Below are positions 43,098-46,669 of a stretch of 64,000 nt of DNA, in pieces. Both the position numbers and the translations under genes were made by a program. Source of the stretch: Falsirhodobacter algicola (GTDB taxonomy: Bacteria; Pseudomonadota; Alphaproteobacteria; Rhodobacterales; Rhodobacteraceae); contig NZ_CP047289.1 in NCBI RefSeq assembly GCF_018279165.1, positions 1,929,001 to 1,993,000 on the forward strand, read 5' to 3'. How positions within the stretch are numbered: position 1 is the stretch's first letter; every line of letters begins with the position of its first letter. The notes beneath the pieces are model-generated. The model worked only from the letters and a program-made list of their open reading frames with translations, had not been told where the DNA came from and did not search any database.

Positions 43098-44696
<1,599 letters not shown>

Positions 44697-44960
44697 GGTG
44701 ATGCTCCCCCCTCAGTGTGCCGCGATCGGCACCTTCATTGCCGTCGCGCCCCGATGGCGCGGCCATCAGAGCATAGGAGCGGTATGTTCCAAATAACAGC
44801 GCAAAAACAGTATGTTAGCGCAATCATCCGGGGTTAGCGCAATCAGTCGCACCGGGGGCGGGTGCTGGCGGGGTCTTGGATTCTCTGTTGTCACGGCAGA
44901 TGCCAGATGGAAGAAGGAGCCAAGGATCGCCGCTGCGGACGAAGGTTGGAAAGGTCATCT
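44697..44960. promoter_or_regulatory. pckA-chvI divergent control region with three AGCGCAA repeats
   Basis: AGCGCAA occurs at 44798-44804, 44817-44823 and 44836-44842, exactly 19 bases apart and all on the same strand. The last two share a longer core, GTTAGCGCAATCA (44814-44826, 44833-44845). The first copy is embedded in ATAACAGCGCAAAA. GCGC-centred sites of this kind recall LacI/GalR-family operators; PckR/CceR-type regulators control pckA in other Alphaproteobacteria. ChvI itself is another candidate. No promoter boxes could be set with confidence. Confidence 0.65.
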
Positions 44961-45659
44961 ATGTCACGGATCGCCCTTGTGGATGATGACAGGAACATTC
45001 TCACCTCGCTGACCATCACGCTGGAGGCGGAGGGCTTTCACGTCGATGCCTTCTCGGACAGCCATGCCGCGCTGGAGGCGTTTCGGCGCACCCCGCCCGA
45101 TATCGCGATTCTCGACATCAAGATGCCGCGCCTCGACGGGATCGAACTCTTGCAGAAGCTGCGGCAGTTCTCGGCGATTCCGGTGATCTTCCTCACCTCC
45201 AAGGACGACGAGATCGACGAGATCCTCGGCCTGCGGATGGGGGCGGACGATTATGTGCGCAAACCCTTCTCGCAGCGGCTTCTGGTGGAACGGGCGCGGG
45301 TGCTGCTGCGGCGGCAAAAGGCCCTCACCTCGGACGAGGGCGCGGCCGAAGGGGCGCAGATGATGGAGCGGGGGCATCTGCGGATGGACCCGCTGCGCCA
45401 TTCCGTGACGTGGAAGGGCGAGGATGTTGGCCTGACCATGACCGAATTCCTGCTGCTGCGGACGATGGCGCAGCATCCGGGCTTCGTGAAGACGCGCGAG
45501 CAGTTGATGCAGGCCGCCTATCAGGATCAGGTCTTCGTCGATGATCGCACCATCGACAGCCACATCAAGCGTCTGCGCAAGAAACTGCGCCATCTGGACC
45601 CCGACTTCGCCGCGATCGAGACGCTCTACGGCATCGGCTACCGCTACAACGAGGCGTGA
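44961..45659 (+). CDS. chvI: ChvI-type response regulator
   Basis: A 232-residue OmpR/PhoB-class regulator. The receiver domain has [11 protein letters not shown], the phospho-acceptor Asp in [12 protein letters not shown] (residue 52), the Thr/Lys switch in FLTSKDD and KPFSQRL. The DNA-binding winged helix ends in [14 protein letters not shown] and LYGIGYRY. In Agrobacterium and Sinorhizobium, ChvG-ChvI respond to acid and envelope cues and regulate pckA. The ATG at 44961 follows GGAAAGG. Confidence 0.94.
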
Positions 45660-46669
45660 TGGCGTCTCAGGGCTCCACCGCGACGGGATGTTCGCGCCTG
45701 TGGTGGCGCATGCTGGCGCTGCATCTGGCCGCGACGGGGCTGACCTGTGCGGCGGTCGCGGCGATGGGGCATCTGCCATGGGGGGCGATTCCGGCGGCGC
45801 TGCTGATCGCGGTCGGCTCCAGCCTCGTGCTGGCGCGGATGATCGGGCGGCCGCTGCGGGATCTGACGCAGGCCGCCCGCCACCGCGAGGACGCGGCCGA
45901 GCCGGGGCGCATCTCCTTTCCCGACATGACCGATCGCAGCGACGAGATCGGCCGCCTCTCCGAGGCGCTGCGCGACATGGTGGCGGCGCTCTACGACCGG
46001 ATCGACGCGAATGAACAATTCGCGGCCGATGTCGCGCATGAGGTGAAGAACCCGCTCGCCTCGTTACGCTCGGCAGTGGAGACGCTGCGCATCGCGCGCG
46101 AGGATCAGCGCCCGGTGCTGATGGAGATCATCGAAACGGATGTGCGGCGGCTGGACCGGCTGGTCAGCGACATCTCCGCCGCCTCGCGGTTGGACAGCGA
46201 GCTGGTGAAGGAGGGGGAGGAGCCGCTGGATCTGACGCTTCTTCTGGGTCAGATCTGCGAGCATCTGGCCCCGCGCATGGCCGACCGGGGCGTGGCGCTG
46301 ACGGCGCGGCTGCCCACCGTCCCGGTGCGGCTGACGGGGCTGGAGGACCGGCTGGCGCAGGTCTTCGTGAACCTCATCGACAATGCCGCCTCGTTCAGTC
46401 AGCCCGGCGACGAGGTGGCGGTCGCGCTCTCCACGCGCGACGGCACGGCGGTCGTGGTGGTGGAGGATGCCGGCCCTGGCATTCCCGAAGAGGCGCTGAC
46501 CCGGGTGTTCGACCGTTTCTACAGCCAGCGCCCCCAGCGCCAGTTCGGGATGCATTCGGGCCTTGGCCTTGCCATCTCGCGGCAGATCGTCACCGCGCAT
46601 GGCGGCGCGATCTGGGCCGAGAACCGGGCCGAGGGCGGCGCGCGTCTCGTCGTGGTGCTTCCGGCATGA
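45659..46669 (+). CDS. ChvG-like sensor histidine kinase with minimal periplasmic domain
   Basis: A 336-residue inner-membrane kinase, much shorter than usual ChvG (about 550-600). Two helices (residues ~14-36, LWWRMLALHLAATGLTCAAV; ~42-63, GAIPAALLIAVGSSLVLA) are joined by a loop of about five residues, so the large sensor domain is missing. A HAMP region, the H-box FAADVAHEVKNPLASLRS (His 127), an N-box LIDNAASFS and G-boxes EDAGPGIPEE and HSGLGLAIS are all present. GTG-ATG occurs at the start; ATG at 45659 overlaps the chvI stop. Confidence 0.87.
   Translation: MASQGSTATGCSRLWWRMLALHLAATGLTCAAVAAMGHLPWGAIPAALLIAVGSSLVLARMIGRPLRDLTQAARHREDAAEPGRISFPDMTDRSDEIGRLSEALRDMVAALYDRIDANEQFAADVAHEVKNPLASLRSAVETLRIAREDQRPVLMEIIETDVRRLDRLVSDISAASRLDSELVKEGEEPLDLTLLLGQICEHLAPRMADRGVALTARLPTVPVRLTGLEDRLAQVFVNLIDNAASFSQPGDEVAVALSTRDGTAVVVVEDAGPGIPEEALTRVFDRFYSQRPQRQFGMHSGLGLAISRQIVTAHGGAIWAENRAEGGARLVVVLPA

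Follow-up and report, generated by a model that had tools for sequence, protein, structure and literature searches.

Two divergent genes bound the region studied here, which lies in a 64,000-nucleotide stretch of Falsirhodobacter algicola DNA (hereafter the window, meaning the whole stretch that was analyzed).

43098-44696, minus strand: pckA, ATP-dependent phosphoenolpyruvate carboxykinase, 532 aa; NCBIfam models NF006822 (973 bits) and TIGR00224 (653 bits), both above cut-off.
44961-45659, plus strand: chvI-like gene for an OmpR-type response regulator, the divergent neighbour of pckA; Response_reg and Trans_reg_C domains.

These domain and family matches bear out the identities given to both genes in a preliminary description of this DNA, and the upstream region that they share is 264 bp long. 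A ChvG-like kinase is encoded at 45656-46669 on the plus strand; its conserved VAHE box is preceded by only about 130 residues, compared with 353 to 374 in five relatives (5 of 8 relatives gave a reading), and it seems to lack the periplasmic sensor region.

The shared region contains AGCGCAA on the plus strand at 44798, 44817, and 44836, exactly where the preliminary description had placed three copies, with both steps being 19 bp. The 13-base identity reported for two of the copies was also found, as GTTAGCGCAATCA is common to the second and third. When the genome (2.78 Mb) was scanned for this shared repeat, as had been proposed, exact matches were confined to these two places, but five places, two of them exact, were obtained with one mismatch allowed. 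The heptamer is not enriched in the window as a whole (13 observed versus 9.83 expected). Its clustering in the pckA-chvI region is not due to chance: among 20,000 dinucleotide shuffles of 44697-44960, three or more copies appeared in one shuffle and two or more in 16.

For comparison, one pckA per genus was sampled from 120 genomes of the family, including the window's own, and all 120 upstream stretches were read. A symmetric search across the 120 genera yielded the motif TGGTTGCGCTAAC in the sense of pckA. The initial scan used a crude symmetric score, which gave a spurious additional match in the window at -69; it was superseded by a profile trained on crude-score matches from all genomes except the window's, with a median score of 23.3 for the training sites. 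With this profile, two sites were predicted in the window, corresponding to the second and third repeats.

44813-44826, minus strand: predicted pckA-proximal CceR-type operator, TGATTGCGCTAACA in pckA sense and TGTTAGCGCAATCA on the plus strand; score 22.7 (22.3 with the 50-genome profile); position conserved in relatives.
44832-44845, minus strand: predicted pckA-distal CceR-type operator, TGATTGCGCTAACC in pckA sense and GGTTAGCGCAATCA on the plus strand; score 23.0 (23.5 with the held-out profile); start 19 bp from the proximal site.

Conservation upstream of pckA, which the preliminary description had left to be checked, proved strong across the family. A profile built from 50 genomes found the motif at -260 to -60 in 50 of 51 held-out genomes, and the same profile found it at -560 to -360 in 0 of 51. 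Over the 120 genomes, the pckA region held two strong sites in 79, one in 17, three in 7, and none in 17. Among 14 named genomes picked out of 80 loci, Rhodobacter capsulatus SP108 included, all had a strong pckA site and 13 had a pair 20 to 21 bp apart. The window sites have the form GAT-N6-AAC and match five of the six bases of the published GTT-N6-8-AAC (PMC4344238; this and the other papers cited are drawn on in part), and the zwf site of this genome matches it in full.

The spacing of the pair was less constant than the window had suggested. The step between 93 neighbouring site pairs was 20 bp in 52, 21 bp in 26, and 19 bp in 3, and the remaining pairs were separated by 22 (1), 23 (2), 30 to 33 (6), or 12 to 13 bp (3). 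The step in the window is thus a rare variant of the two-turn spacing, and exact 19-bp phasing was rejected as a defining feature. The 19-bp spacing emphasized earlier is exact in the window but is not supported as a meaningful value, since relatives use 20 to 21 bp.

The window's genome encodes four LacI-type proteins, one of which was followed across the sample.

Contig C1, approximately 1564338-1565345: regulator gene with LacI and Peripla_BP domains, by domain match.

Orthologs of this regulator at 62% identity or more occur in 102 of the 120 genomes, its own included; five other genomes have only relatives at 41% identity or less, 12 have none at 1e-40, and one (G109) has an intermediate at 54%. 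By the profile, a strong pckA site was present in 100 of the 102 genomes with the ortholog versus 2 of the 17 with none or with distant relatives (99/102 versus 5/17 by the crude score); G109, with one site of score 14.4, was omitted from both groups. The Fisher test gave p = 4e-15, a value that treats genomes as independent and ignores their relatedness. The two genomes with strong pairs and no ortholog (G018 and G039) are draft assemblies (about 210 and 100 contigs, respectively); no ortholog emerged in either even when the search was relaxed to E 1e-10, only distant LacI proteins in G018 and zero in G039. Conversely, G007 and G118 have the regulator and no strong pckA site. The pckA of G118 is only 61% identical, and that of G007 (C7:95090-96423) is broken by several stops. 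The closest named orthologs carry labels that are mostly Rhodobacteraceae or member genera, including R. capsulatus SP108 at 76%. The C1 protein is probably a regulator of the GapR/CceR group, with RSP_1663 of Rhodobacter sphaeroides matched by regulon and motif rather than by sequence. The preliminary description had named CceR, a LacI-type protein, among candidate binders; motif conservation together with the tracking of the regulator favours this candidate, and pckA is the probable target of the operator pair.

In the window's genome, zwf, edd, and two gap genes are likewise preceded by the motif, which also lies in the interval between pgk and the class I fba gene; these instances came from pattern searches and chosen stretches rather than from a genome-wide profile count. 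In relatives, a site lies upstream of zwf in 24 of 30 loci and of edd in 28 of 30, versus 1 of 30 for each coding-interior control; each set comprised the best 30 matching loci of the 61 genomes searched, the window's own included. This set of genes matches the published GapR/CceR regulon of Rhodobacteraceae: the regulon of GapR (RSP_1663), which includes pckA, zwf, edd, gapA, gapB, and fba, was found in 13 of 13 members studied (PMC4052901), and for RSP_1663 both binding to GTT-N6-8-AAC and regulation of PckA have been predicted (PMC4344238). Other matches to the pattern at one mismatch in the genome are mostly noise (66 forward versus 92 control), and two further stretches, L299 and L300, were not counted as targets (best scores 7.8 and 10.7).

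Three additional observations were made in the other chosen stretches. A 19-bp step recurs at the gap gene downstream of tkt, where the second of two CceR-type sites is in the opposite orientation (L303:2117-2149, which is C1 1072616-1072648). A strong CceR-type site, TGATAGCGCTAACT (score 19.8, L301:2045-2058, C1 approximately 508344), lies just upstream of a gene for a small DUF1127 protein (L301:2069-2305), a possible unrecorded CceR target. Upstream of zwf, a 225-aa ORF (L304:2091-2768) shows a weak, sub-cut-off match to models of IscB-type nucleases over about 60 residues, perhaps an HNH domain.

Downstream of the pair, toward pckA, two promoter-like elements are found, the first of which overlaps the remaining AGCGCAA copy.

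44793-44799, minus strand: -35-like element CTGTTAT of a putative pckA promoter; CTGTT at 44795-44799, at offset 27 as in relatives.
44770-44775, minus strand: -10-like element TATGCT of a putative pckA promoter; at most one base from the conserved -10-like stretch of relatives.
44798-44804, plus strand: third AGCGCAA copy, a look-alike; score -2.5, without an AAC half, overlapping the conserved -35-like element.

Counted from the start of the proximal site in the 103 genomes with a strong site, CTGTT first occurs at offset 27 in 58 and TGNTA first occurs at offset 49 in 66. From this register, CTGTT and TATGCT are presumed to be the -35 and -10 elements of pckA; if the assignment holds, the operator centres would lie at approximately -57 and -76 from the presumed start. 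The three repeats had been taken as equivalent, but only two are alike: real sites have a median score of about 23, far above that of the copy at 44798. This copy is a chance look-alike and not an operator of the CceR family, and it owes its sequence to the overlap with the conserved CTGTT element. One could instead regard it as a weak extra CceR site that completes an array of three dimers or, at high CceR levels, occludes the -35 region, given that it keeps the 19-bp step and that some pckA regions do hold three strong sites. We consider this improbable, because the copy lacks the AAC half, CTGTT accounts for its sequence, and a site at this place is rare in relatives, with only five matches above score 2 at offsets 20 to 21 on the downstream side of the proximal site, over those of 119 genomes that have a site.

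The position of the pair between divergent genes raises a different alternative, namely, that CceR controls pckA and chvI together and thereby also sets the level of ChvG/ChvI. Joint control of gluconeogenesis and ChvI had been suggested in the preliminary description, and the shared region, together with the divergent arrangement of the two genes in at least 102 of the 120 genomes, is in its favour. By a simple test, 18 genomes had no divergent chvI, although in three of these (G026, G040, and G112) chvI in fact adjoins pckA. Nine of the 18 are without ChvI at 1e-50: the four that have the regulator (G020, G087, G093, and G100) keep strong pckA sites, whereas the five that do not have it have none. 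Where chvI lies elsewhere, the sites of G019 and G073 remain at pckA, and the 1500 bp upstream of chvI hold none; G118, G049, and G004 have no strong pckA site and are therefore uninformative on joint control. The sites thus stay with pckA where chvI is elsewhere or not found, so that joint control of chvI is not supported, and both the conserved -35/-10-like stretch and the intact half-sites are oriented toward pckA. G007 points the other way: its broken pckA is 2.4 kb away, yet a site (score 15.5) persists 286 bp upstream of chvI, and this counter-case leaves an effect on chvI unproven. Distance favours neither gene, since the spread from the site to the starts of pckA and chvI is about equal (sd 24.0 and 21.7, respectively, in 94 genomes). 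Findings from another order also count for joint control: in Agrobacterium, pckA is under ChvG/ChvI regulation (cited in PMC3687685), and the targets of Brucella BvrR include pckA and bvrR (PMC9491525); the two systems thus meet at pckA there. Taken together, joint control is unlikely, and chvI is probably not a target of the sites.

Far less likely still is that ChvI binds the repeats, combining autoregulation with control of pckA. The chvI gene adjoins them, and the Caulobacter ChvI motif TTGC-N3-GCAA and TTGCGCTAAC have the half TTGC in common (PMC9731502), but the sites persist in genomes without detectable ChvI. The published ChvI motifs, TTGC-N3-GCAA and, for Sinorhizobium, GCC-N8-GCC (PMC9731502), do not fit: on neither strand of 44697-44960 was there a TTGC-N3-GCAA at one mismatch or fewer or an exact GCC-N8-GCC, and ChvI was rejected on motif as the binder of the window repeats. 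Over the 120 regions, TTGC-N3-GCAA occurred 19 times versus 12.0 expected at one mismatch or fewer, and 4 versus 0.6 in exact form; this excess indicates that a few regions may hold ChvI sites, at a lower rate than the CceR-type motif.

The element is very probably a GapR/CceR operator pair that activates pckA in gluconeogenesis and is released by 6-phosphogluconate, with the third AGCGCAA being no site. The observations behind this reading are the sequence itself, its conservation, the tracking of the regulator, the motif shared among targets, and the fixed register with a promoter-like stretch; from them we infer binding, activation, the response to the effector, and the transcription start of pckA. 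Each operator would be one imperfect palindrome for one dimer, and the pair would stand just upstream of the -35 region of pckA. On gluconeogenic carbon, the regulator may occupy both sites and aid RNA polymerase at pckA in a class I-like arrangement. Sugars would raise 6-phosphogluconate, CceR would then release the DNA, and pckA expression would fall; the same CceR would repress zwf, edd, and other genes of sugar catabolism from sites near their starts. In agreement with such a scheme, Paracoccus denitrificans CceR represses glycolytic enzymes and activates gluconeogenic ones (PMC11323563), and gluconate-6P is sensed by CceR (PMC5507952).

The sites at pckA and at zwf and edd differ in form. 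Counting only sites with an intact GCGC core, 122 of 141 pckA sites combine a perfect AAC half toward pckA with one mismatch in the GTT half, the reverse holds in 7, and both halves are perfect in 12; both halves are perfect in 40 of 45 zwf and edd sites. They also differ in number, since two or three strong sites are present in 86 of the 120 pckA regions, and exactly one in 50 of the 52 site-bearing regions of zwf and edd; of the other two, one edd region has two sites 20 bp apart and one zwf region has a distant weak second match. With the sign of regulation taken from the literature (pckA activated; zwf and edd repressed), we tentatively propose that CceR might use a two-part site code, in which activated pckA has a phased pair (20 to 21, sometimes approximately 31 bp) of asymmetric sites with the intact half nearly always facing the promoter, and repressed zwf and edd have a single symmetric site near the start. 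If true, the LacI-type CceR would owe its activator role to the pairing and the weakened outer half, which would also let pckA answer 6-phosphogluconate at a different threshold, and the contrast of asymmetric pair and symmetric single site would offer a simple, testable sequence rule for whether CceR activates or represses a gene. We found no description of such a code in the GapR/CceR literature, a weak negative because the search was partial and the main CceR study lay outside its scope. The contrast between paired asymmetric and single symmetric sites may be the most useful result of this study.

In the LacI family an operator can be symmetric, like Osym, or asymmetric with a single good half, like lac O1. 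The likeness to the window pair is an analogy only; a tandem activator arrangement is not known for the lac operators. Cra/FruR of enterobacteria, also of the LacI family, is an activator of gluconeogenesis and a repressor of sugar catabolism (PMC4052901), but it belongs to another protein group and has another effector and motif. PckR of Rhizobiales is likewise a LacI-family regulator with a dual mode and has pckA among its most conserved targets, but it is not orthologous to GapR and recognizes another DNA motif, according to the same source. The closest correspondence is with GapR/CceR of Rhodobacteraceae (RSP_1663), whose published role is to activate gluconeogenesis and repress sugar catabolism: the window's genome has the LacI-family regulator and the motif at pckA, zwf, edd, gap, and pgk/fba, although its pckA sites are asymmetric, differ by one base from the published palindrome, and are spaced by 19 bp versus 20 to 21 bp in most relatives. 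The analysis establishes how pckA, which stands at the entry to gluconeogenesis, is probably controlled in a large bacterial family, with the switch conserved in most genera sampled. The odd-looking triple repeat consists of an ordinary conserved pair and a look-alike; the switch is very probably that of the known GapR/CceR system, and the pair in the window is a further member of it.
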